Positions 43,666 through 60,854 of a DNA stretch of 64,000 nt are shown piece after piece. The notes beneath the pieces are model-generated. The model did not search any database and was not told the DNA's origin. It saw only the letters and a list, made by a program, of their open reading frames with translations. Every line of letters starts with the position of its first letter. Position 1 is the first letter of the stretch. Made by a program: the position numbers and the translations under genes. The stretch is from Firmicutes bacterium HGW-Firmicutes-14 (GTDB lineage Bacteria; Bacillota; Thermincolia; Thermincolales; UBA2595). The stretch spans positions 226,206-290,205 of the forward strand of contig PHAB01000003.1 of the NCBI GenBank assembly GCA_002840275.1, in the 5' to 3' direction.

Positions 43666-44169
43666 TTGCTATTCAGAAAATTTAGACAAGTTGATAAAAA
43701 ACTGGGTAGTATAATTCCTAAAGGAACGAAAATTCAACTAATCATAATTGGCTCAGGCTCATTTATTTTAAAAGGCCTGTTGAGCCGGGTAACCTATGAC
43801 ATTGATACATACAATATTTCTGACAAAAAAGTAAGACATGTTTTGGCGGAATATAATATATCCGATATGGGTGCCCGGGTAATGACTATTTGCGAGAACT
43901 TTGATCGTCGCTTGGAAAAAGTTAATTTACCATTAGAAAACATTGATTTATTTGTTTTAAGCAACTATGATATGATAATATCAAAATTGGGTTCAACAAG
44001 ACCTAAAGATATTCTTGATATAATAGATTCAGGACTTATATTTATAATTGATTTTGACAGGCTTGAGGAAATAATTAAAGAAGAATTGGCCAGCATAGGC
44101 GATACCAGACGAATTTGGAGCGATATCGAGTATCTTAAAATGTTACGGGACGAAGGGGTGAATAGATAA
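43666..44169 (+). CDS. DUF6036-like nucleotidyltransferase
   Basis: A 167-residue protein with the nucleotidyltransferase pattern: I-I-G-S-G-S-F-I-L-K-G-L followed by T-Y-D-I-D-T-Y (the D-x-D metal pair). Such DUF6036/AbiEii-related proteins are often toxins or antitoxins in two-gene modules. Only a TTG at 43666 is available and it has no clear ribosome-binding site; a frame with M-A-E-E-T-V before it is in a different frame, so the N-terminus is uncertain. It overlaps the next gene by 1 base (TAATG). Confidence 0.55.
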   Translation: MLFRKFRQVDKKLGSIIPKGTKIQLIIIGSGSFILKGLLSRVTYDIDTYNISDKKVRHVLAEYNISDMGARVMTICENFDRRLEKVNLPLENIDLFVLSNYDMIISKLGSTRPKDILDIIDSGLIFIIDFDRLEEIIKEELASIGDTRRIWSDIEYLKMLRDEGVNR

Positions 44170-44633
44170 TGAGATTTGCTCAATTCCTGGAGCAGTATAG
44201 AAAAAATTTAACTGATGCGGTTACTCTTGAAGAACTGCTTCAGGAGGCGAAGCAGAACCATAGAGTACAAAAATTACTGCCGGTATATGTCATGAAAGAC
44301 AGGAATACCTTTAATCATTTATTAAGATTGGCAGATAAGGATCCCTATGCCCGGAAAATAGCTGCACATGCCAGGATGACAGTTGAAACTTTAGCGAAAA
44401 GCAAAAAAAAATCAGTAAAGATGAAAAGGTTGCTGGGGCATTTGGCAGATATAACCGATGTATCTATGCAAACTAATAGTATCACCATGGAAGATTGGGA
44501 ATTTGACGGATATTCGAGGGTAATAAACAGTTATTTTGTTACAAACAAAGTTTTTACGCCTTTTAAGGCTTTACGCCACCGTCAAAAAATGGATTCTGTT
44601 GACTGGGAAAACCTTATTGGTCCAAATAATTAA
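44169..44633 (+). CDS. hypothetical protein, partner of the nucleotidyltransferase-like gene
   Basis: A 154-residue charged, helical protein without signal or membrane segments; I recognise no family. It overlaps the DUF6036-like gene by 1 base and a perfect terminator follows its stop, so the two form a closed two-gene module. A toxin/antitoxin-type relation is possible but not shown. Confidence 0.55.
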   Translation: MRFAQFLEQYRKNLTDAVTLEELLQEAKQNHRVQKLLPVYVMKDRNTFNHLLRLADKDPYARKIAAHARMTVETLAKSKKKSVKMKRLLGHLADITDVSMQTNSITMEDWEFDGYSRVINSYFVTNKVFTPFKALRHRQKMDSVDWENLIGPNN

Positions 44634-44645: not shown

Positions 44646-44679
44646 AAAGCCAATCCAATGCGGATTGGCTTTATTTTTT
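44646..44679 (+). terminator. intrinsic terminator
   Basis: AAAGCCAATCC/GGATTGGCTTT perfect 11-bp stem with 5-base loop and ATTTTTT tail. It closes the two-gene module. Confidence 0.92.
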
Positions 44680-44831: not shown

Positions 44832-45284
44832 ATGCGTTTTTTTATGCTTGATAAAATAACTCATTGGAATATAGGACATGAAGCCCGCGGTTTAAAAAGT
44901 ATAGCCCTGAGTGAAGATTTCTTTAACGACCATTTCCCCAGGCACCCGGTGATGCCCGGCGCACTTATTATAGAAGCTATGGCCCAACTCGGCGGGTTAC
45001 TGCTTGAAGCAACCTGTGAACGAGATTATCACAAAAAAATTAAAGCTGTATTAACCATTGTTGAAAACATTAAATTCAGGAATATGGCCCGTCCGGGGGA
45101 TACCCTGGATATGGTATGTACAATTTTATCTGCTAATGAAGATTCCGGTAAAATCAAATGCCAGGCAACTGCAGGCGGCAAAAGGATCGCTGAAGGGAGC
45201 CTGATTTTTGCATATTTAGATGAAATGGATGAGTATTTAGAGCAAAAAAGAGCAGAACTACTGAGGTTTTGGATGGAGGCATAG
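44832..45284 (+). CDS. FabZ-like 3-hydroxyacyl-ACP dehydratase
   Basis: A 150-residue hotdog protein. The catalytic segment reads N-D-H-F-P-R-H-P-V-M-P-G-A-L-I-I-E-A-M-A-Q, with the dehydratase His and Glu of FabZ. It should remove water from a beta-hydroxyacyl-ACP intermediate. First gene of the 13-gene operon; ATG 44832 follows GGGGG. A second, altered hotdog protein is encoded at 50350. The fatty-acid housekeeping FabZ is not likely, given the unusual partners. Confidence 0.85.
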   Translation: MRFFMLDKITHWNIGHEARGLKSIALSEDFFNDHFPRHPVMPGALIIEAMAQLGGLLLEATCERDYHKKIKAVLTIVENIKFRNMARPGDTLDMVCTILSANEDSGKIKCQATAGGKRIAEGSLIFAYLDEMDEYLEQKRAELLRFWMEA

Positions 45285-45289
45285 ATTAC

Positions 45290-46564
45290 ATGGCGGAATT
45301 AAAGCAGAGGGTAGTTATTACCGGCACAGGTATGATAAACCCTCTTGGGCAAGATTGTAATGCCATATGGTCTGCCATCAATCAGGGATTAGGCGGAATC
45401 ATCCATACCCCGGAAGATTTAAAAGATGAAGTCTCCTGTCCGGTTTGCGGATATGTTGAAGACCTTAGCCCATCAACAATTTTAAAAAACCGCAAGACCG
45501 CAAAACTTATGGGGCGGGATTCTTTGTTAGGCATCAAAGCTGCCCGTGAGGCTCTTGCCGTTGCAGGATTTAACAATATGCCGGAAGATCAGGACCGGTT
45601 TGGGTTATATGTAAGTACAGGCCTGACGTACGGTTCTAAGAAAGATATTTTCCCCTTGGTTAATGATGCCCTCGAAAATAACGGGGTTTCTATGAAGGCC
45701 TTCGGAACAGTTTCACTCAATAACTGCAATCCGCTGCTATCCTTTAAAATATTACCCAATATGCCTGCGTGCCATATTTCTATCGAACTGGGCCTTACAG
45801 GGCCTAACATGGTTTTAAATCCCCGGCCTGTCCAGGGCGCCCAGGCAATTGGCGAAGCCTTTCAAGCCATCGGTGACGGCTTGCTTGATCAAGCCCTGGT
45901 CGGATCCTTGGACAGCAGATTACACCTGGCCGGTATTCAGACCATGAACTGCGAAGGAGTAATATATGATGGCGGAAACCAGGCGTCTGAGGCTTCGAGG
46001 CCTTTTGATAAAATGCGCAAAGGTATTATTCCTTCGGAAGGGGCCGCTTTTTTGGTACTGGAATCTTTGGATTCAGCCACACAAAGAAACGCCAGGATCT
46101 ATGCTGAAGTGATAGCTTACGGACAAAGCAGTGCCTTAACATCTGATGAAGAATCATACTGCAGTGCTGCCTTTTCAGCCATGGAAAAGACATTAAGCCA
46201 GGGCCAAATCGATATTAGTGACATTGACCTGCTATATAGCAGTGCAGCTTCATGCCCAATTAATGACCAAATTGAAGGTATAGCCATTAAAAAACTGATA
46301 GGTACAAGTAAAACAAAAATATGGTGTCCTAAGGCATTTTATGGTGAACTGGGAGCATCATCACTGTCCACGGCAGTGGTTTTAGCCGGAATGTCTTTGT
46401 CCGGCGGGATAATTCCGCCAAGTATTAATTTAGATAATAATGAGTTTTCGCTCCCTTTTACAAAAAAGTCAACAGTCCCCAGCCAACTAAAATACTGCCT
46501 GATAAATGCCTGTGAAACAAGCCCGGTAAAAGCCAGTATCCTGTTAGGGAGGGTACTGAAATGA
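45290..46564 (+). CDS. ketosynthase-like protein lacking all catalytic residues (chain-length-factor-like)
   Basis: A 424-residue thiolase-fold protein that aligns along its whole length with the next gene. Where the partner has the nucleophile Cys168, this one has Pro180 (N-P-R-P-V-Q-G-A-Q-A-I-G); H-G-T-S-T is replaced by A-A-S-C-P, and the second His (T-G-H) by Y-G-E. It therefore cannot condense acyl chains itself. In type II polyketide and aryl-polyene systems such a protein pairs with the active ketosynthase and sets chain length. I use ATG 45290, with GGAGG 10 bases before; the TTG at 45269 overlaps the FabZ gene. Its stop overlaps the next start (ATGA). Confidence 0.82.
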   Translation: MAELKQRVVITGTGMINPLGQDCNAIWSAINQGLGGIIHTPEDLKDEVSCPVCGYVEDLSPSTILKNRKTAKLMGRDSLLGIKAAREALAVAGFNNMPEDQDRFGLYVSTGLTYGSKKDIFPLVNDALENNGVSMKAFGTVSLNNCNPLLSFKILPNMPACHISIELGLTGPNMVLNPRPVQGAQAIGEAFQAIGDGLLDQALVGSLDSRLHLAGIQTMNCEGVIYDGGNQASEASRPFDKMRKGIIPSEGAAFLVLESLDSATQRNARIYAEVIAYGQSSALTSDEESYCSAAFSAMEKTLSQGQIDISDIDLLYSSAASCPINDQIEGIAIKKLIGTSKTKIWCPKAFYGELGASSLSTAVVLAGMSLSGGIIPPSINLDNNEFSLPFTKKSTVPSQLKYCLINACETSPVKASILLGRVLK

Positions 46565-47817
46565 AAAGAGTCGTCATCACAGGAATGGGCATCGTCTCAC
46601 CGGTAGGAAACACGAAGAGTGAGTTTTTTACCGGCCTGGCTTCCGGCAAAAATGGGATAGGCCCTGTTACACTGTTTGATGCTTCTACGTTTCCTGTGCG
46701 GTTTGCCGGGGAAGTAAAAAATCTAAATACGGATGAACTGGCGGCCTGTAATCCAGCATTAAGCAGGATTACTGACCGCAAGGTCTTTCTGGGTTATAGA
46801 GCTGCCGTCGATGCCTTATTAGATTCAGGTATTATTAATAACATCAATTCTGTGGTTAGCGCCCCTCTGGAACTTGGCTTGAATCTTGGAGTCAGCCTTG
46901 AATCCGTCAGACTTGAAGACATTGCCGCTCTTAGGAATCACGGTCCTTCATCATTGCCAATTCAAACACCTTTGCCAATTCAAACACCGCTGGATACTTT
47001 AAGCAATATTCTGATCCAGCAGTATAAGTTAGCAGGAAGCAGCTTTGTCAACTGTTCTGCCTGTACTGCCGGCACTCAGGCTATCGGCCATTCGTTCCAA
47101 AAAATCAGGTCCGGCTATGCTGATGCTATATTGGCAGGTGGATATGACTCAATGATAAACCCTTTAGGAATCGGCGGTTTTGCTTTGCTGGGCGCTTTGT
47201 CAACACAAAACGAATCTCCCGAAAAAGCATCGCGCCCATTTGACCTGCTGAGAAATGGCGCTGTTCTCGGAGAAGGCGCGGGTATGTTCATACTTGAGGA
47301 ACTTAATCACGCCCTTGACCGGGGAGCACATATTTATGCTGAAGTTTTGGGTTATGGAAGCAGTATGGATGCATATAAGGCTACAGATCCACACCCGGAA
47401 GGAACCGGCGCGGCTGCAGCAATAAGCAGGGCACTTAGTGACGGAGGGGTTACCCCTGAGATGATCCACTATATCAATGCCCATGGAACTTCCACTCCCA
47501 AAAACGATATCGCAGAGACAAAAGCTATAAAGACCGTATTTGCAGAATATGCTTATCAAGTTCCTGTCAGTTCAACCAAGTCAATGACCGGACACCTGAT
47601 TGCTGCCGCCGGCGCTGTAGAGGTTGGCGCTTGTCTGTTTGCCCTGGCAAGGAATATGATTCCACCAACTATTAACTATGAGAACCCAGACCCGGAGTGC
47701 GACCTCAATTATACACCTAACCGTTCTGTATCATGGGACGGTGAAAATATTCTGACTTGCTCTTTCGGTTTTGGCGGCCAAAACTCGGCGCTGATACTTG
47801 GCCGATATAAGAAATGA
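46561..47817 (+). CDS. beta-ketoacyl-ACP synthase (FabF/KAS II-like)
   Basis: A 418-residue condensing enzyme with the full triad: Cys168 (S-A-C-T-A-G), His308 (N-A-H-G-T-S-T) and His345 (M-T-G-H). It extends acyl-ACP with malonyl-ACP. It overlaps the chain-length-factor-like gene by 4 bases, implying 1:1 synthesis and a heterodimer. An 18-bp in-frame tandem duplication (46954-46989) adds a second L-P-I-Q-T-P. The TTG/ATG choice is simple: ATG 46561. Confidence 0.9.
   Translation: MKRVVITGMGIVSPVGNTKSEFFTGLASGKNGIGPVTLFDASTFPVRFAGEVKNLNTDELAACNPALSRITDRKVFLGYRAAVDALLDSGIINNINSVVSAPLELGLNLGVSLESVRLEDIAALRNHGPSSLPIQTPLPIQTPLDTLSNILIQQYKLAGSSFVNCSACTAGTQAIGHSFQKIRSGYADAILAGGYDSMINPLGIGGFALLGALSTQNESPEKASRPFDLLRNGAVLGEGAGMFILEELNHALDRGAHIYAEVLGYGSSMDAYKATDPHPEGTGAAAAISRALSDGGVTPEMIHYINAHGTSTPKNDIAETKAIKTVFAEYAYQVPVSSTKSMTGHLIAAAGAVEVGACLFALARNMIPPTINYENPDPECDLNYTPNRSVSWDGENILTCSFGFGGQNSALILGRYKK
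46954..46989 (+). repeat. 18-bp in-frame tandem duplication
   Basis: TTGCCAATTCAAACACCT followed by TTGCCAATTCAAACACCG (17/18), inside the ketosynthase gene, encoding L-P-I-Q-T-P twice. Confidence 0.9.
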
Positions 47818-47833
47818 TGAAAGGTTTGATTTA

Positions 47834-48583
47834 ATGAACCTGCAAGGTAAAGCAGCCCTGGTAACCGGGGCCTCCAGGGGTATCGGGCGGGCTATAGCCT
47901 TAAAACTGGCTGCAAACGGGGCCAGGGTTGGAGTCCACTGCCTGCAAAATCAAGACCTGGCAGAACAGGTAGCTGAAGAAATAACACGGAATTCGGGAGA
48001 GGCTGAAGTTTTTCTTGGAGATATCAGCGATTCCATAGCAGCCACTCAAATAGTTGAGGAGACCATTTCAGTCTTTGGCCGTATTGACATTCTGGTTAAC
48101 AACGCCGGAATAGTCCGGGATTATCCTGCTGCCGGGATGGAAGACACGGAATGGTCCAAAGTGCTTAATGTAAATCTTACCGGTACCTTCAACATGTGCC
48201 GGGCCGCAGCCAAACCAATGATGATGCAAAAAAGCGGGCGGATTATCAATATCTCTTCATTTATTGCCCGGTTAGGCGGAAGGGGACAAGCTAATTATTC
48301 AGCCAGTAAGGGAGGTATTGAGTCCCTTACCAGGTCACTGGCCGTGGAACTGGGTCCCAGGAATATCACAGTTAATGCAATAGCGCCAGGGGCAGTACTG
48401 ACAGATATGAGCAAGGAAGCAATTGAGGCCCATGGCGGGCAGCTGGTTTCAAAGATACCTTTAAACCGGCTGGGGAAACCCGAAGACATAGCGTCCCTGG
48501 CAGCCTATCTGGCTTCTGACGAAGCAGGATATATAACCGGGGAGGTAATAGGGGTAACAGGGGGACTGGGACTTTGGAGTTAG
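47834..48583 (+). CDS. SDR-family 3-oxoacyl-ACP reductase-like protein
   Basis: A 249-residue FabG-like short-chain dehydrogenase. T-G-A-S-R-G-I-G-R-A binds NAD(P)H near residue 12, N-N-A-G near 87, and the catalytic Y-S-A-S-K near residue 153. It likely reduces the beta-keto group made by the ketosynthase. ATG 47834 follows AAAGG; an upstream frame from 47798 overlaps the ketosynthase gene. It overlaps the nitroreductase gene by 10 bases. Confidence 0.88.
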   Translation: MNLQGKAALVTGASRGIGRAIALKLAANGARVGVHCLQNQDLAEQVAEEITRNSGEAEVFLGDISDSIAATQIVEETISVFGRIDILVNNAGIVRDYPAAGMEDTEWSKVLNVNLTGTFNMCRAAAKPMMMQKSGRIINISSFIARLGGRGQANYSASKGGIESLTRSLAVELGPRNITVNAIAPGAVLTDMSKEAIEAHGGQLVSKIPLNRLGKPEDIASLAAYLASDEAGYITGEVIGVTGGLGLWS

Positions 48584-49185
48584 CGGAGATTATTAAATCC
48601 AGGCGCAGTATCAGAAAATTTACTGATGCGGATGTGCCTGATGAAATAATTCAAAAATTAGCTGAAGCTGCCCGGTGGGCGCCCAGCCCGACCAACAGGC
48701 AGGGAACCGAAATCATTGTTATCCGCAACCGGGATTTAAAGGATAAAATGGCTGAAGTGGTTAAGCAATCCATCAATGAACTTGAAACAAAGGTACCTAA
48801 TGAAGACGCCTTGCAAACCCTCAGGGACTACGGCAATTATTTTACCTTTTTTAAAGAAGCGCCGGTTGTTCTGGTAATCACCTACAGGCCGAAACAGTCA
48901 ATAACCGGCATATTGACCGGTTCCTCAGGCAAACCTCGTGATTATATCGCCGATATTTCAGGAACAGCCGCGGCGATCCAAAATATTCTGCTGACTGCTC
49001 ACAGCCTCGGTTACGGCACCTGCTGGATGACCGGTCCGTTGATTGCCGAAGAACCGTTAGCGGATTTGCTGGAAATAAGGCCTCCCAGGCGCTTGGCGGC
49101 CATCGTTCCCCTCGGAATACCGGCTGAACAGCCGGAGGCGCCAAAAAGAAAAGATATTGACAGCATTTTTAGGGTGGTGGAATAG
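48574..49185 (+). CDS. nitroreductase-family flavoprotein
   Basis: A 203-residue FMN-dependent oxidoreductase: R-R-S-I-R-K-F at the N-terminus, A-A-R-W-A-P-S-P-T-N-R-Q for FMN binding, and Y-G-T-C-W-M-T-G-P-L near 150. In biosynthetic operons such proteins reduce or oxidise enone or C=C bonds; here it could set the saturation state of the chain (inference). TTG 48574 within the end of the SDR gene. Overlaps the ACP gene by 1 base. Confidence 0.85.
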   Translation: MELAEIIKSRRSIRKFTDADVPDEIIQKLAEAARWAPSPTNRQGTEIIVIRNRDLKDKMAEVVKQSINELETKVPNEDALQTLRDYGNYFTFFKEAPVVLVITYRPKQSITGILTGSSGKPRDYIADISGTAAAIQNILLTAHSLGYGTCWMTGPLIAEEPLADLLEIRPPRRLAAIVPLGIPAEQPEAPKRKDIDSIFRVVE

Positions 49186-49598
49186 TGGCCAAATATACCA
49201 AAGACGATATTTTTCAGGGCCTCCGGTCCTGTCTGGCCCAAGTATTAGAAATTGAAGAAAATGAAATTAACCTGAAGGATTCCCTGGTAAACGACCTGGG
49301 GGTGGATTCCCTGGATTTCCTGGACCTGGTGTTCAGGATAGAAACAACTTTCAAAATCAAGCTGAAACGGGGAGAAATTGAAGGTCTGGCCCGGGATATT
49401 ACCGGAGCTGAAGGCTTTGAAATTAACGGGGTAATTACACCACAGGGGATTTCAGCGCTCCAACAAGCCCTTCCGGAAGTGCCACAGGACAGGTTTAAGG
49501 ACAACTTACGGGTGGCTGAGATTCCAACACTATTTACGGTTGAAACTTTTGTCAAACTGGTAGAAACCAAGCTGGAAGGAGATAACCATGCTTCTTAA
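49185..49598 (+). CDS. acyl carrier protein, extended form
   Basis: A 137-residue ACP, longer than the usual 75-80. The phosphopantetheine attachment site is Ser42 in L-G-V-D-S-L-D-F, preceded by D-S-L-V-N-D-L. The C-terminal half carries an insert (residues of about 60-110) not found in housekeeping ACPs, ending with a last helix (L-F-T-V-E-T-F-V-K-L-V-E). GTG start shares one base with the previous stop. Long ACPs of this kind occur in specialised FAS-like operons. Confidence 0.85.
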   Translation: MAKYTKDDIFQGLRSCLAQVLEIEENEINLKDSLVNDLGVDSLDFLDLVFRIETTFKIKLKRGEIEGLARDITGAEGFEINGVITPQGISALQQALPEVPQDRFKDNLRVAEIPTLFTVETFVKLVETKLEGDNHAS

Positions 49599-50346
49599 AG
49601 ACAAAAATGTATTTATCTCCGGGGGCACAGGCCACTTGGGAGAACACTTGGTTCTGGCTTTTGCCAAAAACGGAGCAAATATTGTTTTTACATACCACAA
49701 AAACAAAGAGAAGGCGGAAGAACTGATCTCTTTGACCAAAGAAATCTCTTTGACAAAAGAAATGCCTGGCAAAACGGCTGCTTTACCAATGAATGTTTTA
49801 GAGCAGGATTCAGTTGAAAGGGCAGTGACCCAATGTGTGCAGGAACTGGGCAGTATTGATATTCTGATAAACAATACCGGTATAGCCCAGGTGATGCCCC
49901 TGCCGCTGGTGGAACAGGAAGATTGGGACCTGCTCTTTGATGTTAATGTCCGGGGATGTTTTTTTGTTTCAAAAGAAGCAATCAGGCATATGATTGCCGC
50001 AAATAACGGGGGAGTGATTATTAACATTGGTTCGGTGGCCGGATTGCGCATGCTGGAGGTGCCGGTCCACTATGCGGCCTCTAAAGCTGCCATCCATGGG
50101 ATGACTTATGCCCTGGCCAGGGAACTGACCAGATACAAAATCCGGGTAAACTGTATTGCCCCCGGCTTACTGGAAGGGGGAGTAGGGGCAAATATTCCGC
50201 CAAAACAGTTGGCAGATTATTTAGCCCATTGTGCCGCCGGACGCCCGGGTAAACCTGAAGAAGTGGCCTCCCTGGCTGTGTTTCTGGCTTCGCCGGAAGC
50301 ATCATACATCAATGCCCAGGTTATTGTATGTGACGGAGGGCTTTAA
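49588..50346 (+). CDS. second SDR reductase-like protein
   Basis: A 252-residue SDR with a variant nucleotide motif, G-G-T-G-H-L-G, and N-N-T-G instead of N-N-A-G; the catalytic Y-A-A-S-K is kept. It may reduce a different intermediate from the first SDR or act as enoyl reductase. An 18-bp tandem duplication (49726-49761) inserts I-S-L-T-K-E twice. ATG 49588 overlaps the ACP end. Confidence 0.85.
   Translation: MLLKDKNVFISGGTGHLGEHLVLAFAKNGANIVFTYHKNKEKAEELISLTKEISLTKEMPGKTAALPMNVLEQDSVERAVTQCVQELGSIDILINNTGIAQVMPLPLVEQEDWDLLFDVNVRGCFFVSKEAIRHMIAANNGGVIINIGSVAGLRMLEVPVHYAASKAAIHGMTYALARELTRYKIRVNCIAPGLLEGGVGANIPPKQLADYLAHCAAGRPGKPEEVASLAVFLASPEASYINAQVIVCDGGL
49726..49761 (+). repeat. 18-bp in-frame tandem duplication
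   Basis: ATCTCTTTGACCAAAGAA then ATCTCTTTGACAAAAGAA (17/18) within the second SDR gene. Confidence 0.9.
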
Positions 50347-50349
50347 GAA

Positions 50350-50805
50350 ATGCGGTTTATCTTTGTTGATGCAATTTCCTGCCTCAGAAAAAACCGGTAT
50401 ATCCGGGGTTCCAAGTCCGTATCCTTTGAGGAGGGGTTTATCAGCAGGCCTTATGCCAAAAACGGCTTTCTGCCCCGCACATTACTTATGGAATCTATAG
50501 CCCAAATGGCATCCTGGCTGGTGATTTATTCTACGGATTTTTCCTTTCAACCGGTAATTGCCACAGTGAAACAAATAGAATTATCAGCTGATGTCCGGGT
50601 TGGGTCTGTCATTGATATAGAATGTTCCGTAACCAATTGGTCTGAAGACGGGGCTGTGATGGACTGCACAGGTTCTGTAGAGGGCCGGACTGTTATTAAG
50701 GTCTGCCACAGCGCCATGTTTTTTATGCCCCTGGAACAATTACAGGATATTGACGAAGCCAGGGCTGACTTTGCCCAACTGGCCAGAAAGGCGGATATTT
50801 CATGA
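50350..50805 (+). CDS. hotdog dehydratase-like protein without the catalytic His
   Basis: A 151-residue protein that aligns with FabZ over the central helix: N-G-F-L-P-R-T-L-L-M-E-S-I-A-Q-M corresponds to the P-V-M-P-G-A-L-I-I-E-A-M-A-Q of the first hotdog protein. The acid Glu is kept, but the segment that should hold the His (D-H-F-P-R-H) is replaced. It may be an inactive partner, a thioesterase-like protein or an isomerase. Starts 3 bases after the SDR stop; overlaps the radical SAM gene by 4 bases. Confidence 0.7.
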   Translation: MRFIFVDAISCLRKNRYIRGSKSVSFEEGFISRPYAKNGFLPRTLLMESIAQMASWLVIYSTDFSFQPVIATVKQIELSADVRVGSVIDIECSVTNWSEDGAVMDCTGSVEGRTVIKVCHSAMFFMPLEQLQDIDEARADFAQLARKADIS

Positions 50806-52220
50806 TGCCTGCCAACCAGTGTTTGTCGGTAACCCGCAGTGTTTGCCCCGAATGTGGTGAAGTGATCAATGCCAACATAGTATCTGACGGTAAAAATGTT
50901 TATCTTCGCAAATGCTGCCCCCGGCATAGTTCAGACGATATTTTGATTTCAGCCAACCTGCAATGGTACCTGAAAACAATTAATTCCCTGCAGTTTAGCG
51001 AAACCTCCGGGCCCAGGAAGCCGGTACAAAAAGGCTGCCCGCATGATTGCGGCCTCTGCTCCTGGCACGAGACATCATGTACCATCCCGGTTTTTTCAGT
51101 TACAAACGCGTGTAACCTTGATTGCCCAATATGCTTCACATATAATCGTCCTGATAAAATGTACTACATGTCAAAAGAGGAAATGGGACGTATTGTTGAA
51201 AACCTGATCAGTGATTTTGGAGAGATGGATTTAATCAACATTACCGGCGGAGAGCCAACCATGCATCCCAATCTGGCAGAACTCCTGAAAATAGCTAAGA
51301 GGCCGGAGATTGGGCGTATCACTGTAAATTCAAATGGATTAAACCTGGCCCGCGATGAGGATCTGGTCAGGGAACTGGCCGGTTTGGGGGCCTATGTGAT
51401 CCTGTCTTTTAACACCCTCGATGCCGAAGTAAGCCGGAAAATGCATGGTGAAAACATTGTGGACATTAAACTTCAGGCCATGGAGTACCTGGAAAAGCAC
51501 AATGTTTCAACAACTCTCCTGGCAGTGGCTGTTAAGGGTTTAAATGACCATGAGTTAGGCAAATTGGCTGATATGGTCATGACCAAGGATTTTTTGCGCA
51601 GTTTTACGGTGCAAAACATGACATACACCGGCCAGGGCGGCAGCTGTTTCGGCCCTGTTTCTCACATTACTGTTGATGAAGTAATAGAGTGTTTAACCAC
51701 ATCCAAAATTAATTTAAAACAAGATGATTTCAGAGCTCATCCCCGAAGCCATCCGCTCTGTTATAGTACCTGTTATGTAATATCAGACGGGCAGGGAAAT
51801 ACTTTGCCCATGGCCCGTTTATTAAGCGAAGAAGATTATGCGGCCCTTTTATCAGGAGGTTACCTGCTGCACCCTGAGCAGAACCTGGAAGACCGGATGA
51901 ACTCTGCTGTCAACCGGCTCTGGGCCGAAGGCGCCTCGCCTCAAACGCTTAAAATAATCAAAGACCTGATTAAAGAAATATACCCGCTGAACCGCCCGCT
52001 GACTGTTTTCGAAAGGCAGCAAGCGGCGGAAAACCGGATAAAAACCATATATATTCATTCCCATATGGACGCCTATAACCTGGATTTGGGCAGGCTGTGC
52101 CGCTGCGGTGACCTGGTGCCCCAGTCTGACGGAAGATATTTGCCGGCATGCAGTTATAACATTTTCTACCGAAAACAGGACAGCCGGTTCTGGCGTGAAG
52201 AGGGGAGGGTATCCCCTTGA
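50802..52220 (+). CDS. radical SAM protein, Tes/MJ0619-like (first of the operon)
   Basis: A 472-residue radical SAM enzyme of the tetraether-synthase-like group. N-terminal C-P-E-C and C-C-P-R-H metal site; K-G-C-P-H-D-C-G-L-C; cluster motif C-N-L-D-C-P-I-C near residue 106; I-T-G-G-E-P-T; C-terminal R-S-H-P-L-C-Y-S-T-C and A-C-S-Y-N-I-F-Y-R auxiliary-cluster region. Tes joins alkyl chains at sp3 carbon; with an acyl-ACP system, this enzyme could forge C-C bonds or branches in the chain. ATGA overlap with previous gene and 4-base overlap with the next radical SAM gene. Confidence 0.87.
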   Translation: MMPANQCLSVTRSVCPECGEVINANIVSDGKNVYLRKCCPRHSSDDILISANLQWYLKTINSLQFSETSGPRKPVQKGCPHDCGLCSWHETSCTIPVFSVTNACNLDCPICFTYNRPDKMYYMSKEEMGRIVENLISDFGEMDLINITGGEPTMHPNLAELLKIAKRPEIGRITVNSNGLNLARDEDLVRELAGLGAYVILSFNTLDAEVSRKMHGENIVDIKLQAMEYLEKHNVSTTLLAVAVKGLNDHELGKLADMVMTKDFLRSFTVQNMTYTGQGGSCFGPVSHITVDEVIECLTTSKINLKQDDFRAHPRSHPLCYSTCYVISDGQGNTLPMARLLSEEDYAALLSGGYLLHPEQNLEDRMNSAVNRLWAEGASPQTLKIIKDLIKEIYPLNRPLTVFERQQAAENRIKTIYIHSHMDAYNLDLGRLCRCGDLVPQSDGRYLPACSYNIFYRKQDSRFWREEGRVSP

Positions 52221-53611
52221 ACAGCAGTGAATACAGGCAGTATTATAATTTGACCCAGGGGTTGTGCAATCACTGCGGTAGGCTGGTTCCTGCCAAAGTG
52301 TTCTTTTCCGCCGGGAAAGTATATATGGATAAACTCTGCAATGACTGCGGGCCATCCCGGGCCCTGATATTCTCCGATGCCTCCAGGTACAAGGGTTTGA
52401 CCCACTTTGTCACCGGCGGAAAACCGGCTTTGCATAATAATACAAGTATCAGCAAGGGCTGTCCTGACGACTGCGGCCTTTGCCCCAGTCATTCTCAGCA
52501 TACGTGCCTGCCAATCATTGAAATAACCGACAAGTGTAACCTGAATTGCCCTATTTGCCTGGCTGAAAACGCATCATCCTGGGAAATGAGCATTCAGGCG
52601 TTTCAAGATATTATTGATAACCTGATCAGGTGTGAAGGAACTGTTGATATTATCAACCTCAGCGGCGGTGAGCCAACTATGCACAGCAGCTTCCGGGAAA
52701 TTGTGCGGCTGGCCGCCAGGCCGGAATTTGCGGCTGTCAGCCTAAGCACAAATGGTTTGACCCTGCTCACTAATGAATCACTCCCGGAGTTTCTGGCTGC
52801 CCAAAAGGTATTCGTTTCACTGCAGTTTGACGGGTTTTCAGACCATGTTTACGGTGTTTTGCGTGGTAAATCGCTTTTGGAAGAAAAGATGCTGATTTTA
52901 GAAAAGCTGGCTGAATACAAAATCCAGTCATCACTGGTAGTAACCGCAGCCAAAGGAATTAATGATGACCAACTGGGCAAGATTACAGAGTATTTTCTGG
53001 GTAACCCGTTACTCTGCAGTATGACAATTCAACCTCTAAGTGTGGTCAGGGAACTGCCGGAATCAATCGCCTTCGACCCCATGGACCGCCTGACTGTGCC
53101 TGACATAGTGAATCTGGTAGCCGATGGCTCTATGGGAGTATTAGAAAAAGACGATATTTTGCCATTACCGTGTTCTCATCCGGCATGTTTCCACATAGGT
53201 TACCTGTTAGATCTGGGCGACGGCGAATTCATCCCTTTAAACAGGCTTTTCCCGGCAGAGCAGTATCTGGACGTGGTCAGGGACCGCTCCCTGTTTGGCC
53301 TGGACGCTAATTCACTGGAGGCAGTACAGTCTTTGGTATATCAATTGTGGTCTTCGGCGGGGATGGTTCCCACCACAGAAAAAATCCTCAACATCCTGCG
53401 CAACCTGCTCCGGGAGGTATCCCGTGATTACTCACCCCAAAAGGCCATGCAGCTGGGAGCAGGTAAAATCAAATCGATATTTATCCACCACTTTATGGAC
53501 AGATACAATTTTGACCTGGCCAGAGCCAACAAGTGCTGTGAACACTATCCCAAAACAGATGGGCGAATTTGGCCCTGCTGTGTATATAATAACCTGCACC
53601 GGATCAGGTAA
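52217..53611 (+). CDS. radical SAM protein, Tes/MJ0619-like (second of the operon)
   Basis: A 464-residue paralogue of the previous gene and of 15564: C-N-H-C, K-G-C-P-D-D-C-G-L-C-P, cluster motif C-N-L-N-C-P-I-C near residue 110, L-S-G-G-E-P-T, P-C-S-H-P-A-C, and W-P-C-C-V-Y-N-N-L-H. TTG start overlapping the previous stop (TTGA). Two enzymes of this class encoded back to back suggest successive or paired radical steps, perhaps as a complex. Confidence 0.87.
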   Translation: MNSSEYRQYYNLTQGLCNHCGRLVPAKVFFSAGKVYMDKLCNDCGPSRALIFSDASRYKGLTHFVTGGKPALHNNTSISKGCPDDCGLCPSHSQHTCLPIIEITDKCNLNCPICLAENASSWEMSIQAFQDIIDNLIRCEGTVDIINLSGGEPTMHSSFREIVRLAARPEFAAVSLSTNGLTLLTNESLPEFLAAQKVFVSLQFDGFSDHVYGVLRGKSLLEEKMLILEKLAEYKIQSSLVVTAAKGINDDQLGKITEYFLGNPLLCSMTIQPLSVVRELPESIAFDPMDRLTVPDIVNLVADGSMGVLEKDDILPLPCSHPACFHIGYLLDLGDGEFIPLNRLFPAEQYLDVVRDRSLFGLDANSLEAVQSLVYQLWSSAGMVPTTEKILNILRNLLREVSRDYSPQKAMQLGAGKIKSIFIHHFMDRYNFDLARANKCCEHYPKTDGRIWPCCVYNNLHRIR

Positions 53612-53628
53612 AAAGGAGTGCTGGTAAG

Positions 53629-54612
53629 TTGCCAAACACCAAAAAGAAGTTTTGCCTGCGTTCCTTTTGGGATACCTTGCGGCTGGGGATATTATCGGCT
53701 CTGATGAACCACAGGCTTCCTTCCGGGATCAGGGTGCATGAGGAAACAGGCAGGGCTGTCAGATTACGGACCTATACTTCTTCCGGCAGTCATTGTCCGG
53801 TGGTAGTATTGCACGGTATAACCACCCGGGGTTTTAATGACCACCGGTTAGTGAACTTCTGCCATGTTCTTGCTGCTGTAGGTTTCAGGGTATATACCCC
53901 GGACCTCGATGGCCTAAGAAATCTTAAAATAACTCCAAGTGATATTGACCTTGTTTGCAGGTCTGTACAGGAAGCATATAATCAAAACAATAAAAAGGTG
54001 GGAATTATCGGTTTCAGCTTTGGCGGAACATATGGTTTAATAGGCGCAGCTTCACCTGAGATCAGGGAAAAAGTCAGGTTTGTCCTGGCTGCCGGTGCGT
54101 ATTGGTCTTTGGAAAACATCACTCATTATACATTTAAGACTCCCCAGACAGACCCATATGCCAGGCTGGCCCTGATGTCAGAAGAGTTGGAATGCCTTAA
54201 TCTGAATTCCGGCGAAAAACAAATGTATCTTAAGATTATGAATGAGTTTTGTGCAAGAAAAGACCGGTTTACCCCGGAAGAACAGTTACTTATTAAAAAG
54301 ATTACCGCCAGCCCGGCCCTAAGTGAGGTTTTGGAACATTGGAATCAAAAATTAAAACAATTGTCCATGCTCAGCCTTTCCGGTAATACTTATCTGGATG
54401 ACCTGCAGGCAGAAGTTCTGCTGCTGCACAGCAAAGGTGATGAAGTTATTCAAGTAAGCGAAACCGAAGCCATTTTAGCTTATTTAAAAAACGCCGGAAA
54501 AAATGCGGCCTGTTGCCTGTCAGGTAATTCGGGACATATGGAGTACCTTGACGGAGAACGGACCGGGTTGTTTGGTTTGTTTTACCACATGATGAAACTT
54601 AAAAACCATTGA
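53629..54612 (+). CDS. alpha/beta-hydrolase of the FAS-like operon
   Basis: A 327-residue alpha/beta-hydrolase. Visible are V-V-L-H-G-I-T-T-R-G, the nucleophile elbow G-F-S-F-G-G, and a catalytic His in N-S-G-H-M-E-Y. It may release or transfer the finished acyl chain from ACP (thioesterase/acyltransferase role, inferred). TTG start with AAAGGAG before it; TTG 53629 lies 17 bases after the radical SAM stop. Confidence 0.8.
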   Translation: MPNTKKKFCLRSFWDTLRLGILSALMNHRLPSGIRVHEETGRAVRLRTYTSSGSHCPVVVLHGITTRGFNDHRLVNFCHVLAAVGFRVYTPDLDGLRNLKITPSDIDLVCRSVQEAYNQNNKKVGIIGFSFGGTYGLIGAASPEIREKVRFVLAAGAYWSLENITHYTFKTPQTDPYARLALMSEELECLNLNSGEKQMYLKIMNEFCARKDRFTPEEQLLIKKITASPALSEVLEHWNQKLKQLSMLSLSGNTYLDDLQAEVLLLHSKGDEVIQVSETEAILAYLKNAGKNAACCLSGNSGHMEYLDGERTGLFGLFYHMMKLKNH

Positions 54613-54621
54613 GGTGATACT

Positions 54622-56091
54622 GTGTTTGGCAAAAGATTGGTTTATCTGGATAATACAGCGACCACCAGGACCAGGAGAGAAGTGGTGTCCGAGATGGCCA
54701 AATATTTTAAGAGTATTTATGCCAACCCTTCTTCCATCCATAAAGACGGCCTGATTGCCCGCGGCAGTATTGAGATGGCCAGGGAACGCATTGCCCAGAC
54801 CCTCAACTGCCTTTCTGATGAAATCATCTTTACCGGTTCAGGCACCGAAAGCAATAACCTGGCCATCAGGGGAACTGCCATGAGCCAGGCCGGAAAGGGT
54901 AAACACATTATCACTTCGCAAATTGAACACAGTTCCATTTTAAAAACATGCCAGCAGCTGGAGACCCAAGGCTATGAGGTAACATACCTGGATGTCGACC
55001 ATTGCGGCAGGTTTGACCTGGACCGGTTAAGCCGCTCCATCAGAACTGATACAATCCTGGTTTCTCTCGGCTATGTCAATAATGAGATAGGTACTGTTCA
55101 AGATGTTAACAAGATAATTGGCATTGTCCGAAAGCACAATATTATACTGCATTTCGACGCAGTACAGGCATTGCCATATATTCATTTAGACCTGTCATTA
55201 TTGGGAGCTGATTTGGTTTCCTTTTCCGGCCACAAGTTGTATGCTCCCAAAGGTATAGGATTATTATATGTCCGGCAGGGAACAAACCTGATACCGGCTG
55301 TAACAGGCGGGGAGCAGGAATTTGGCATCCGCAGCGGGACTGAGAATGTACCCTATATTGTGGGTTTATCTAAAGCAATTCTTCTGAATCACAAAGAAAA
55401 GGACAGCTATGTTAAGGGTCTCTCACATATGAGAAACCTTTTGATTGAAGGTGTGCTCAACTCTATACCGGATTGCGTTCTGACCGGGGACCCGGTCAAC
55501 CGTTCACCAAATCATGCCAGTTTTTGTTTCCGCGGACTCAATGGAAAAATGCTGGTCAAGGAACTTTCCCTGCACGGTTTTGAGGTCTCCAGCGGTTCAG
55601 CCTGTTCTTCACCCCGGAATGACCCTTCCCATGTACTCCAAGCGTGTAAAATAGACCAGGAGTTCCTGCATGGCAGCCTAAGGGTAACCCTGGGTAAGTA
55701 TAATCGAAAAAGGGATGTCGAACGTTTTCTGAAAACTTTGGCAGACGTGGTTTCCCGGATGCGCAGTGACAAAAACCCTTATAACAATGAATCAATCTTT
55801 ATGTCCCAGACCGAGTTCAGAGAAAAAATGGAAAAAGGGGAGTCCATGCAAATCCTTGATGTCCGCCACGTTAATTACCCCCGCCGGTCAATTCCGGGTT
55901 CAATTCATATCCCCGTCTGGAAAGTCAAAAATAACCTGCGAAGGCTGGACCCAACCCTGGAAACTATCGTGGTGTGTTACCAGGGGGATATCATTTCGCC
56001 ACAGGTCCACCAGACACTGGTGAAGCACGGATTCAAAAAAGTTAAGGTGTTAAAGGGAGGTTTGTTCAATTATTTTAGATTTATTGTCTGA
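54622..56091 (+). CDS. cysteine desulfurase (NifS-like) fused to a rhodanese domain
   Basis: A 489-residue two-domain protein. Residues of about 1-385 are a class V aminotransferase/cysteine desulfurase: Y-L-D-N-T-A-T-T, PLP Lys205 (S-G-H-K-L-Y-A-P-K), and catalytic Cys328 (G-S-A-C-S-S). Residues of about 395-485 are a rhodanese: I-L-D-V-R-H and the active Cys452 (V-V-C-Y-Q-G-D). It would take sulfur from cysteine and pass it as persulfide within one chain. In this operon it could supply sulfur to the product or repair the radical SAM clusters. GTG start with GAGGTGA. Confidence 0.9.
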   Translation: MFGKRLVYLDNTATTRTRREVVSEMAKYFKSIYANPSSIHKDGLIARGSIEMARERIAQTLNCLSDEIIFTGSGTESNNLAIRGTAMSQAGKGKHIITSQIEHSSILKTCQQLETQGYEVTYLDVDHCGRFDLDRLSRSIRTDTILVSLGYVNNEIGTVQDVNKIIGIVRKHNIILHFDAVQALPYIHLDLSLLGADLVSFSGHKLYAPKGIGLLYVRQGTNLIPAVTGGEQEFGIRSGTENVPYIVGLSKAILLNHKEKDSYVKGLSHMRNLLIEGVLNSIPDCVLTGDPVNRSPNHASFCFRGLNGKMLVKELSLHGFEVSSGSACSSPRNDPSHVLQACKIDQEFLHGSLRVTLGKYNRKRDVERFLKTLADVVSRMRSDKNPYNNESIFMSQTEFREKMEKGESMQILDVRHVNYPRRSIPGSIHIPVWKVKNNLRRLDPTLETIVVCYQGDIISPQVHQTLVKHGFKKVKVLKGGLFNYFRFIV

Positions 56092-56626
56092 TCATTACAA
56101 CCTGGTAATCTTCCTGTTCCTGGCGCTGATAAAAGGCCTTGTTGAAACCTATGCCGGACTGCACAGGGGTAAGGGTGGAGAGGAGGGCTCTAAGATAATA
56201 TCCAGGTTTTTTGTTATTATGGGCTTATTAACTCCTGCATTGATTCTGCTGGAAACCGTATTATTAGGGCACAACCTGTCCCTGGCAATATGCCTGACCA
56301 TGGGTACAACTGCCCTGCTGCTTTTCCTCCTGAGAGCTGCTGCGATCAAGGAACTTGGCAGGTTTTACAGTGTGAATATCCGCATAACCGAGGACCATCA
56401 GCTCGTTAAAACAGGGGTCTACCGGTATTTCCGGCATCCACTGTATTTAATCGGTATTTTGGAGAACGTTTTTTATCCCATGGCCGCCGGGGCATATTGG
56501 ACGGCTGTGTTGTTGGTTGTTACAGTAACTCCAGTGATATTACTGCGCAGGCACCGGGAAGAAGGAATCCTGCTGAAAAAGTTTGGCCGGGAATATGCGG
56601 ACTATAGGAAGAGTACTTGGTTTTAG
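56084..56626 (+). CDS. ICMT/phospholipid-methyltransferase-type membrane enzyme
   Basis: A 180-residue membrane protein with about four helices, and the family end: V-K-T-G-V-Y-R-Y-F-R-H-P-L-Y, then R-R-H-R-E-E-G-I-L-L-K-K-F-G-x-E-Y-A-D-Y. These enzymes methylate carboxyl groups, amines or thiols of lipids. TTG start overlapping the desulfurase gene by 8 bases. Last gene of the operon; a 30-bp repeat follows 7 bases later. A related domain ends the YeeE/YedE-like fusion at 19985. Confidence 0.83.
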   Translation: MSDHYNLVIFLFLALIKGLVETYAGLHRGKGGEEGSKIISRFFVIMGLLTPALILLETVLLGHNLSLAICLTMGTTALLLFLLRAAAIKELGRFYSVNIRITEDHQLVKTGVYRYFRHPLYLIGILENVFYPMAAGAYWTAVLLVVTVTPVILLRRHREEGILLKKFGREYADYRKSTWF

Positions 56627-56956: not shown

Positions 56957-58162
56957 ATGATTTTTGAAATTCTGTGCTTGGACAAAGCAGAACAAGTTAA
57001 ATCAAGAACGGTAAAGACCTTTCTCTATGCTCTTATGGCAAATGACAATCTTTTTGAAAAGCCGATGATGGATGTAGGCAAGGGTGAGATTACAGACTCC
57101 CAAAAAAAGCTGCAACTTAATATCAATCAGTTTCCAACAGACAAAATGTTGACAGGCGAAAGGTATTCGGTGGCTTTTACCATTAGTGTTAAATGTGACC
57201 AAACAAAAACAATAGATATGTTTCGGGTGGATTTGGTAGATTATATCAAAGCTATCGGCTTTTCAAATGTACGCATACTACTTGACGAGGTATCGGCAAA
57301 ATTTGCTGCTTCTCTGTATCCTAAAGTGTATTCCTTGGAGAACCAAGTCCGTACTTTTATGATTAACTTTTTCCTCAAAAATTTAGGTACAAATTGGACA
57401 AAGCTTGCAATGTCCGGTGACACATTGGAAAAAATTAAAAAACGAAAGCATAACGATAAGATTTTCATTGCTAATAATCGTATTGATAGCGATGTTGCAC
57501 TTATTGATTTTGATGAATTAGGGCGCATACTTTACAATGAAAATTCAATTTTAAGTAGTAAAAAAACTGACAATGTAGCGATTCTGATTGAAAAAATTTC
57601 ATTGGCTACTGACTTGAACGCTTTGAAAAGCGAGGTCTTGGAAGGCAATTTTTATAAGTACTTCAAAGATTGTTTTACCCAAAAAGATTTTCAAAGTAAG
57701 TGGTATGAACTGTATTACTATAGGAATAAGCTTGCCCACAATGGTTCATTTTCTCAGGAAGAAATTGACACTTGTACTGCTATTTGTGATAGCATCTCAG
57801 CTATCATTGATACAGCCTATGAGAAACTGGACACCTTTAAACTTAGTACATCCGACCAAGAGGCTTTAATGGCTGCCGTTAATGAGTTCGCCTCCGAAAC
57901 TCTGCAAGACAGTTTTCACGGTAGTAGCTTATACTCCACAATAACCGAAGATATATTACTTGAAGAATTACAAAATGCGCAGAATAAATTGCCTTTTGTA
58001 GGATTAAGACATTTTGTCGTTGAATGGCTCGGAAAACAAGGTTACGACTTTGATGCCTCATTTACTCTTATAAACTACTTAGAGGACAAAGGAATTGTTA
58101 AACTTACAAAGGTGGATAATCCTTACGGAGATTACCAAACCACGAAAATTTCAATTGCTTGA
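56957..58162 (+). CDS. HEPN-domain protein, likely defence-related
   Basis: A 401-residue soluble protein. The RNase-type HEPN motif Rx4-6H appears at Arg256-Asn-Lys-Leu-Ala-His261 (Y-Y-Y-R-N-K-L-A-H-N), in a helical region. Its N-terminal part (residues of about 1-150) contains beta-rich sequence I do not recognise, and the C-terminal part a winged-helix-like segment. HEPN proteins cut RNA in antiviral and toxin-antitoxin systems. It is AT-rich and sits in a defence-type island. AAGGGGGA precedes the ATG. The partner, if any, is unclear. Confidence 0.65.
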   Translation: MIFEILCLDKAEQVKSRTVKTFLYALMANDNLFEKPMMDVGKGEITDSQKKLQLNINQFPTDKMLTGERYSVAFTISVKCDQTKTIDMFRVDLVDYIKAIGFSNVRILLDEVSAKFAASLYPKVYSLENQVRTFMINFFLKNLGTNWTKLAMSGDTLEKIKKRKHNDKIFIANNRIDSDVALIDFDELGRILYNENSILSSKKTDNVAILIEKISLATDLNALKSEVLEGNFYKYFKDCFTQKDFQSKWYELYYYRNKLAHNGSFSQEEIDTCTAICDSISAIIDTAYEKLDTFKLSTSDQEALMAAVNEFASETLQDSFHGSSLYSTITEDILLEELQNAQNKLPFVGLRHFVVEWLGKQGYDFDASFTLINYLEDKGIVKLTKVDNPYGDYQTTKISIA

Positions 58163-59612: not shown

Positions 59613-60854
59613 ATGCCGGAAGTTGAAAACACTCAAATAGACTCAACGTTATCTACAGATGTTGGCGATGAAACTTCCAATAGATTCCGATATCAATGGG
59701 TTTTATCAGCTATAATCTGCTGCATGCTACTAGATCAAGCCGAAGACACCCAAGAAGTGTTTTGTGAGCATCACGAGGATATTTTGCTAAAACATGTTAA
59801 TGGTCTTTTTACCGGTATACAGGTAAAAACTAGAGCAAGCGATCAACCACTTTGGAAATCAAGCGATGAAGAAGTGGTTAAAGCTTTTGCCAGATTTGTA
59901 ATACTAGACAGACAATATCCAAGACAGTTTCAAGCCTTTCAATTTATCACAAATCACCCCATACAGTCATCCTCGAATGGACAGGATATTTCATATTTGC
60001 TATGTCAAATAAGACAAAATGAAAGTCATGACTCATTATGTAATGTTGCTAAAACCTTTATACGAAAGATATCAAGAATAGCAGGAATTTCGGAAGAATA
60101 TATCTTTCATACACTTAAAAAGGCATCAGTCAAACATGATTTGCCTAAATTTCGAGATGCCACCATGCGGCTTATAGACACAATAGTTATAGTTTGGGAT
60201 AGAGCACAGGGAGCTTCTTATGAAGGAATTAAACGTGCTGCAAGCCATTTAATTGATGCATGCTTTCGTGCTTCGTCATTAGCAAGCCAAGATTTATTAC
60301 CTGCATATTTGCCTTTTTCATCCAGCGGAGTTGAAAGAGAAATTCAAGAACGCATAGCAGGAAAAACATTCAGCAAACAGCGCGTTCAAGATGTGCTATT
60401 ACAAGGCTTAGATGACACAATACCATTATCTTGCGATCCAATGGATTTGGAAGATATCCGTACGGGCAGTAAAGAATTGCTGCGCAAAAAACTAACCGCA
60501 GGTGGATTTTCAGCTATATCGACTATATACGCTGAAGACTTGCGGGATACAGCAGATTATGCAGGAGCACGTCTTATACAAAAATATGGTCGTGAACAAG
60601 GCCTCCAAAAATATTACGAATTACGATTAAAAGTCCAAGGGGATGCTGCCAGAGCATATGAAAAGCAAAAAAAGGATGAAGATCCGTTTGGACTTCATAT
60701 GTTGTCCTCTCTTCGTGATAATCTGAAAAACAGGGCTTCATCTGGAGATCAACTTTATGGCTGTTCTGTTGAGCACTTGGAAGGGTTAGCGTATTCGCTT
60801 ACTTCACAATGTAAAATAATATGGAGCATTAATCGTCCGTGGGAGGTGGAATAA
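59613..60854 (+). CDS. DUF4297-type nuclease component of an ABC-3C-like system
   Basis: A 413-residue protein. The N-terminal about 200 residues match DUF4297 nucleases: G-D-E-T-S-N-R-F-R-Y-Q-W, E52-H-H-E55-D56 and the G-I-Q70-V-K72-T core (E...Q-x-K, PD-(D/E)xK-like). The C-terminal half is helical and fits the C-terminal domain that ABC-3C effectors use to contact their partners. It likely cuts DNA when the system is triggered. GGGAGGG precedes the ATG, and the next gene starts at its stop (TAATG). Confidence 0.8.
   Translation: MPEVENTQIDSTLSTDVGDETSNRFRYQWVLSAIICCMLLDQAEDTQEVFCEHHEDILLKHVNGLFTGIQVKTRASDQPLWKSSDEEVVKAFARFVILDRQYPRQFQAFQFITNHPIQSSSNGQDISYLLCQIRQNESHDSLCNVAKTFIRKISRIAGISEEYIFHTLKKASVKHDLPKFRDATMRLIDTIVIVWDRAQGASYEGIKRAASHLIDACFRASSLASQDLLPAYLPFSSSGVEREIQERIAGKTFSKQRVQDVLLQGLDDTIPLSCDPMDLEDIRTGSKELLRKKLTAGGFSAISTIYAEDLRDTADYAGARLIQKYGREQGLQKYYELRLKVQGDAARAYEKQKKDEDPFGLHMLSSLRDNLKNRASSGDQLYGCSVEHLEGLAYSLTSQCKIIWSINRPWEVE

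Follow-up and report, generated by a model that had tools for sequence, protein, structure and literature searches.

A type II fatty acid/polyketide synthase-like operon with two predicted Tes-family radical SAM enzymes in Firmicutes bacterium HGW-Firmicutes-14

The radical S-adenosylmethionine (SAM) enzyme GDGT-MAS, or Tes (MJ0619; structures 7tol and 7tom), binds finished lipids with their headgroups outside and passes through a sulfur-bound carbon intermediate that accumulates when SAM is limiting (PMC9433317). Bacterial Tes homologues have been discussed as candidates for branched-tetraether synthesis (PMC8941075, PMC11868695), in the available parts of those papers without the gene context described here. 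According to its authors, who argue from models, Mss, a bacterial membrane-spanning lipid synthase, has the catalytic architecture of Tes; it is discussed together with Ger, on diacylglycerol-type lipids, and is argued to act after headgroup attachment (PMC13274423). Aryl polyenes are made by a ketosynthase (KS) with a chain-length factor (CLF), a dehydratase heterodimer that has one active site, and a reductase of the FabG type, without an enoyl reductase (PMC8041823, PMC8358021), while the ladderane operon joins fatty acid synthase (FAS) and radical SAM genes (PMC2649909). Here we describe an operon in which a chain-building line of the KS-CLF kind stands with two Tes-family radical SAM genes, rSAM1 and rSAM2. 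It lies in a 64,000-nucleotide stretch of Firmicutes bacterium HGW-Firmicutes-14 (assembly GCA_002840275.1, contig PHAB01000003.1, forward-strand positions 226,206 to 290,205), which we call the window and whose own numbering we use.

The operon consists of 13 open frames, all on the + strand, spanning 44832-56626. Overlaps of 1-20 bases occur at nine of the 12 gene junctions, and gaps of 3-17 bases separate the genes at the remaining three; start codons were assigned mechanically, and some true starts may lie further in. Pfam and NCBIfam searches assign all 13 genes to families, bearing out the thirteen-gene operon and the families named in the initial annotation, with one weak member, the second hotdog protein (21.3 bits against a Pfam cut-off of 23). 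The gene set is a real, conserved and apparently undescribed variant of type II polyketide synthase (PKS)/FAS pathways. The genes, with the evidence for each, are:

44832..45284, + strand: FabZ-type 3-hydroxyacyl-acyl carrier protein dehydratase, catalytic His and Glu present (domain search, active-site alignment)
45269..46564, + strand: ketosynthase-like CLF partner, catalytic Cys/His/His lost; likely start ATG at 45290 (domains, alignment)
46561..47817, + strand: FabF-type KS, catalytic residues intact (domains, alignment)
47798..48583, + strand: FabG-type ketoreductase of the short-chain dehydrogenase/reductase (SDR) family (domains)
48574..49185, + strand: predicted nitroreductase-family flavoprotein, candidate enoyl reductase or redox partner (domains, PDB match)
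49185..49598, + strand: acyl carrier protein (ACP) with conserved C-terminal extension (domains, alignment)
49588..50346, + strand: second SDR (SDR2), closely associated in related loci with the radical SAM genes (domains, neighbourhoods)
50350..50805, + strand: second hotdog protein, FabZ catalytic His replaced (Pro in the window), likely inactive dehydratase partner (domains, alignment)
50802..52220, + strand: rSAM1, Tes-family radical SAM protein, expected cofactor-ligand positions present, position of GDGT-MAS Tyr459 not kept (domains, structure, alignment)
52217..53611, + strand: rSAM2, Tes-family radical SAM protein, expected cofactor-ligand positions present, Tyr459 position kept (domains, structure, alignment)
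53629..54612, + strand: alpha/beta-hydrolase, accessory, possibly a thioesterase or lipase (domains)
54622..56091, + strand: cysteine desulfurase of the NifS type with a fused rhodanese domain, accessory, common to related loci L004 and L005 (domains, neighbourhoods)
56084..56626, + strand: ICMT/PEMT-type methyltransferase, accessory, common to L004 (domains, neighbourhoods)

Both radical SAM proteins carry an HMPTM N-terminal zinc-ribbon domain, as found by domain search, and for both the closest solved structure by sequence is GDGT-MAS/Tes 7tol (2e-46 for rSAM1, 2e-70 for rSAM2); the next solved structures reach only 1e-8 and 2e-10 and cover the core only. Their AlphaFold models (mean predicted local distance difference test score 87.0 for rSAM1 and 87.1 for rSAM2) align to 7tol over the whole length, with template-modelling scores (TMq) of 0.81 and 0.84, and other solved folds among the best 50 matches score at most 0.39. 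Both proteins are thus predicted to adopt the full-length, four-cofactor Tes-type fold. The kinship with Tes proposed in the initial annotation holds for sequence and for predicted fold, including the structural comparison it suggested; it does not extend to the curated Tes model or to a labile methionine, as described below. Ligand positions were taken from PMC9433317, and the three C-terminal-cluster cysteine candidates (324, 440 and 455 in rSAM2) are our own assignment. The radical SAM cysteine triad, the N-terminal-cluster Cys and His, and these three candidates are present in 51/51 rSAM2 sequences, and the same set in 32/32 rSAM1 sequences except for one gap at one site; the fourth position of the rubredoxin-like site is Cys or His in 49/51 and 32/32. 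The 32 rSAM1 sequences group in one clade of the tree (support 0.99), and rSAM2 has a clade of 49 (support 1.0); adding L031 and L032 to make 51 lowers the support to 0.28, and both are counted as rSAM2 by exclusion. Residue counts and tree cover frames of 380-620 amino acids, with the divergent L038_8225 left out.

In the chain-building half the window's KS has Cys168, His308, Lys340 and His345, and the CLF, encoded upstream of the active KS, has Pro, Ser, Lys and Glu in the corresponding columns. None of the 15 CLF-labelled proteins of 380-480 amino acids in related loci keeps the active-site cysteine. The CLF sequence is rare: among 120 relatives listed two show 55% and 47% identity and the rest at most 39%, and its best PDB match is 9s5h. 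With a single sequence aligned per locus and label, FabZ keeps its His and Glu in 37/37 sequences, the window included, while the second hotdog protein keeps the Glu and has lost the catalytic His in 16/16, again including the window (Pro, Ala, Ser or Val instead); the two probably form a pair. The ACP shows the Ser attachment motif and the C-terminal extension in the 33 aligned sequences. The best solved-structure match of the nitroreductase is 3eo8, which is BluB-like, and this protein may reduce double bonds. Among the 13 genes Pfam and NCBIfam show no malonyl transferase, no FabH and no enoyl reductase of the FabI/FabK type. Judged from these residues and domains, the line made up of KS-CLF, FabG, the long ACP and FabZ with an inactive hotdog partner is similar to type II PKSs of the aryl-polyene kind, which do without a classical enoyl reductase.

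We scanned one genome per species (84,980 species) with an rSAM2 alignment and obtained 52 loci, which were picked with two short peptide motifs taken from ten aligned rSAM2 relatives and are therefore enriched for close relatives; they include near-duplicates (five Massilia, three Polyangium). Several are short contigs, as are some of the control loci discussed below (L078, L079, L121, L126 and L131, under 6 kb). Genes were labelled by best match, and frames with internal stops were dropped. Judged by record title, the hosts belong to Verrucomicrobia, Planctomycetota, Elusimicrobia, Proteobacteria including Massilia, Polyangium and other Deltaproteobacteria/Myxococcota, Aminicenantes, Riflebacteria, Fischerbacteria and unclassified bacteria. 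Labels were found for KS in 37 of the 52 loci, ACP in 33, FabZ in 36, CLF in 32, ketoreductase in 28, nitroreductase in 31, SDR2 in 44, the second hotdog in 15 and rSAM1 in 31; KS, ACP, rSAM1 and rSAM2 are all present in 21. In 44/52 loci at least one of KS, CLF, FabZ and ACP (the FAS core) is no more than 10 kb from the rSAM2 relative, and tblastn at 1e-8 gives the same 44. Distances between the proteins are correlated, at 0.86 for rSAM1 with rSAM2 and, for rSAM2, at 0.90 with SDR2, 0.91 with nitroreductase, 0.74 with ACP, 0.71 with FabZ and 0.60 with KS; each value was reached by 0/2000 permutations.

A sample of 235 genomes around Polyangium contains 11 with an rSAM2 relative at E <= 1e-150. 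FAS-core genes lie within about 9 kb in six of these 11 loci, rSAM1 is present in nine and SDR2 in ten. Three of the loci (L115, L116, L117) overlap with the 52, being in the genome of L034 and on contigs as long as those of L029 and L043, and the eight new to the set have the FAS core in 4/8 and rSAM1 in 7/8.

Stand-alone Tes-like genes served as controls. In the window's phylum a Tes-like protein occurs at 1e-40 in 21 of 298 other genomes; 20 of the 23 non-own matches, from 18 of the 21 genomes, were taken in. KS, CLF, FabZ or ACP was found in 0/20 of these loci (up to about 8 kb on each side), where weak ketoreductase-like matches (26-27%) occurred in two and a 28% desulfurase match in one. 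The stand-alone Tes-like loci of the Polyangium group had the FAS core in 0/17. Combined, a FAS-core gene stands beside 0/37 stand-alone Tes-like genes versus 44/52 rSAM2 relatives, so that the conserved synteny expected of a pathway is seen. Chance adjacency of FAS and radical SAM genes was rejected on the 0/20 and 0/17 control loci.

The recurring unit is a core of about nine genes, and the last three genes look like accessories. The exact set of thirteen named in the initial annotation defines the unit too narrowly; the second hotdog protein, too, is labelled in only 15/52 loci. The system looks rare in Verrucomicrobiota to judge from a sample of 240 genomes, of which seven match the rSAM1 model at 1e-40; of these the starting genome alone lies near 1e-232, and the next match is at 6e-98. 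An rSAM2 match at 1e-40 is found in one of ten genomes of the window's class, the window's own. This rarity of rSAM2 in the class and that of the desulfurase-rhodanese in the phylum (see below), together with nearest relatives in other lineages, suggest acquisition by transfer.

Two further families recur near the pair. One, of aminotransferases (class III in the one representative scanned), is present in 18/52 loci, mostly proteobacterial or myxobacterial (L010, L017, L019, L020, L022, L025, L029, L032, L033, L035, L038, L040, L041, L043, L044, L046, L047 and L049), hinting that the product bears an amino group there. The other, whose representative is a fatty-acid hydroxylase, is present in 6/52.

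We consider the chances about even that the KS-CLF line and the two Tes-family enzymes act in one pathway that joins or cyclises ACP-made chains at unactivated carbons, giving a predicted lipid not yet described. In such a pathway the KS-CLF, FabG and the FabZ/hotdog pair would elongate a chain on the long ACP, and because no FabI/FabK-type enoyl reductase is in the operon, the chain would be either polyunsaturated or saturated by the nitroreductase. Each radical SAM enzyme would then make a 5'-deoxyadenosyl radical and abstract hydrogen from a chain carbon; the carbon radical would be parked on the C-terminal auxiliary cluster as in GDGT-MAS, and a second SAM would complete the carbon-carbon bond. 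The two paralogues might act at two sites or on two chains, and bond formation might be ring closure within one chain or coupling of two. SDR2 would adjust the oxidation state at the new bond or close to it. For the window's clade a last step may be added: sulfide from the desulfurase-rhodanese would go either to the radical SAM enzymes with their many clusters or into the product, and a carboxylate or thiol would be capped by the ICMT-type enzyme. That chains carried on the ACP are coupled or cyclised is the most likely reading, and it uses all the recurring parts. The cyclic, branched or membrane-spanning product of the initial annotation is likewise a prediction.

Several observations weigh against this pathway. 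The best NCBIfam match of both radical SAM proteins is TrsS, not Tes: TrsS (NF045646) gives 228.6 and 258.7 bits, under its 490-bit cut-off, and the Tes model NF045702 gives 209.1 and 248.8 bits, below its cut-off of 450 for both. From 7tol sequence alignments we mapped by hand the positions of Met439, the labile methionine, and Tyr459. His stands in place of Met439 in 51/51 rSAM2 and 32/32 rSAM1 (83 aligned), while Tyr459 is matched by Tyr in 51/51 rSAM2 and by Val, Ile or Asn in 32/32 rSAM1, and the reaction may accordingly differ from that of Tes. Met439 is reported as conserved in 1000 archaeal Tes homologues; the M439A, Y459F and Y459L variants of GDGT-MAS stayed active (PMC9433317), so these replacements alone do not exclude Tes-like chemistry. 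GDGT-MAS acts on finished lipids and not on ACP-bound chains, and by that comparison the handover to ACP is a guess. Among the 52 loci, eight lack KS, CLF, FabZ and ACP (L004, L010, L016, L042, L044, L048, L053, L055), and not all eight are cut by contig ends; L004 is cut, yet has the hotdog, rSAM1, rSAM2, desulfurase and ICMT genes. Three of the 44 FAS-core loci (L037, L039, L045) show FabZ only, rSAM1 is labelled in just 31 of the 52, in several clusters the FAS block and a radical SAM gene are divergent or kilobases apart, and 5/11 Polyangium-group loci have no FAS-core genes. The permutation test also leaves shared organism history in the correlations.

The last genes of the operon raise the question of sulfur. 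Close desulfurase-rhodanese relatives are found in 2/52 loci and ICMT relatives in 1/52, and the hydrolase is labelled in 1/52. L004 has both desulfurase-rhodanese and ICMT 3' of rSAM2, and L005 has the desulfurase up to the contig end; these two loci share the window's arrangement, without the hydrolase. Two further relatives, P0242 (69% to the desulfurase) and P0122 (63% to rSAM2), are both on contigs of 22,345 bases, which suggests one contig; no other desulfurase/rSAM2 pair on an apparently shared contig was seen by eye among the matches listed. In the window's phylum the desulfurase-rhodanese is found at E <= 1e-140 in one of 398 genomes, the window's own. Lipoyl synthase and biotin synthase give up cluster sulfur to unactivated carbon, and one could imagine the same here: sulfur of the C-terminal cluster would be given to an unactivated carbon, the desulfurase-rhodanese would rebuild the cluster, and the ICMT-type enzyme would methylate the thiol. 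We regard such a sulfur lipid as rather unlikely. It is favoured by the gene arrangement in L004 and L005, by the apparent P0242/P0122 contig, by the carbon-sulfur intermediate of GDGT-MAS at limiting SAM (PMC9433317), and by a third Tes-like gene of the window, rSAM3 (see below), that is also near sulfur-handling and ICMT-type genes. The NifS-rhodanese fusion is, however, more widespread than the operon (55 relatives among the matches listed), and this counts against the sulfur reading; Fe-S assembly alone could account for the desulfurase, and the genes near rSAM3 find no counterpart in other stand-alone Tes-like loci. Sulfur chemistry is therefore possible for the window's clade and, with the desulfurase-rhodanese in only 2/52 loci and ICMT in 1/52, unlikely as the general function of the system. 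The sulfur-containing product proposed in the initial annotation is thus left with sulfur genes seen only in the window's small clade, and as an idea it is unproven.

A membrane route would place the same enzymes differently: tails made by KS-CLF would enter phospholipids first, and the radical SAM pair would then couple two finished lipids into spanning lipids, like Tes or Mss (Mss being compared by its published description). To our knowledge no spanning-lipid production is recorded for carriers such as Massilia, the 13 genes include no glycerol-phosphate acyltransferase or ether-forming domain, and Tes does not need two distinct paralogues; we think this route improbable, even with a Hexapep-domain protein (one representative scanned), perhaps an acyltransferase, near the pair in 12/52 loci, and with the finished-lipid substrates described for Tes (PMC9433317) and argued for Mss (PMC13274423). 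Methylation or decoration of the chain in place of carbon-carbon joining recalls the former 'class D methylase' idea, under which MJ0619 was first described and from which some homologues are still named dimethyltransferase; the authors of the GDGT-MAS structure were unable to corroborate it (PMC9433317), and we judge it very unlikely here. Least probable of all, hardly to be credited, is that the operon is a divergent version of a known pathway, be it that of ladderanes, aryl polyenes or bacterial Mss lipids. The FAS half does follow aryl polyene logic: like the aryl polyene and highly reducing type II PKS systems (ApeO-ApeC, ApeI/ApeP, ApeQ; ishigamide) the operon has a KS with an inactive partner, a FabZ-like pair that by its residues has one active site, a FabG-type ketoreductase and no classical enoyl reductase. 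It differs in having one long ACP instead of two, plus the radical SAM pair and the nitroreductase. No aryl-starter enzyme (AasS-type ApeH) or second ACP domain was found among the 13 genes, and the aryl polyene pathway proper was rejected for their absence. The ladderane operons of anammox bacteria, too, combine radical SAM genes with genes for FAS (PMC2649909). The hydrazine synthase alpha model is matched in 77 of 392 genomes around a planctomycete locus, and the 23 with HZS_alpha frames of 809-844 amino acids were taken as likely anammox. Radical SAM proteins matching the rSAM2 model at 1e-10 occur in every one of the 23 (best 1.6e-18), but in 23/23 no match passes position 307 of 465; with no full-length match in any of them the ladderane pathway was rejected, in line with the initial annotation. 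Compared with Tes itself, the window's proteins share the predicted full-length fold and the rubredoxin-like, N-terminal, radical SAM and C-terminal ligand positions; they differ in the residues and cut-off given above, and in standing, mostly in pairs, beside a type II FAS/PKS line. The statement that no described pathway is known with this gene set is also supported: no paper on Tes-like enzymes in a KS/ACP cluster was found in the open-access literature, which was covered in part and with few subscription papers.

The third, stand-alone Tes-like gene of the window, rSAM3 (15564-17018), was considered as a pathway member and rejected, since stand-alone Tes-like genes of two groups match it best. 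Its best NCBIfam match is the radical SAM (seleno)protein TrsS at 351 bits, under the 490-bit cut-off and nearer to it than the operon's two proteins. It overlaps the next gene, a member of the prolipoprotein diacylglyceryl transferase (LGT) family (the two spanning 15564-17757). An LGT-like gene lies near the stand-alone Tes-like gene in 11/17 Polyangium-group loci and in 1/20 own-phylum loci, and this is a second recurring pairing. Behind LGT, at 17738-21439, are an ArsP_1 permease, a Se/S carrier-like protein and a fusion of sulphur-transport and PEMT/ICMT domains, so that the window twice brings together a Tes-like gene, genes for handling sulfur and an ICMT-type domain. The Se/S carrier and sulphur-transport/ICMT genes have relatives in 0/37 stand-alone Tes-like loci.

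The operon's GC content (0.42-0.49) is higher than that of both adjoining 2-kb flanks (0.34 and 0.39) and within the range of the remaining window. Its likely upstream boundary is a single feature:

44646..44672, + strand: terminator-like hairpin with T-run, between the upstream gene and the operon (consensus match only)

Terminator-like sites are not in excess overall (13 found versus 15.8 expected from shuffled sequence). Directly upstream, at 43666-44633, are a DUF6036 nucleotidyltransferase gene and a small second gene, which we take to be akin to a toxin-antitoxin pair; the two had no match in a defence-system library. Downstream are a HEPN_Swt1-domain protein (56957-58162), a weak match to a candidate defence family, and three genes (59613-63333) that match LmuA, LmuC and LmuB of the Lamassu defence system.

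We tentatively propose, with the balance tilted somewhat against it, that these loci represent a new class of assembly line, in which a KS-CLF and two Tes-type enzymes build carbocyclic or doubly linked lipids by joining unactivated carbons of carrier-bound chains, sparsely spread across phyla by horizontal transfer, and to which the window's lineage would add installation and methylation of sulfur. Two distinct families of Tes homologues are tied to a dedicated chain-building line in bacteria ranging from Massilia and Polyangium to Verrucomicrobia and Elusimicrobia. Not every bacterial Tes match should then be read as a mark of membrane-spanning lipids. Some of the carriers are named species, which offers a concrete, testable entry to the function of bacterial Tes relatives, and the operon may add an enzymatic route for joining inert carbons, of use to biosynthesis and engineering.

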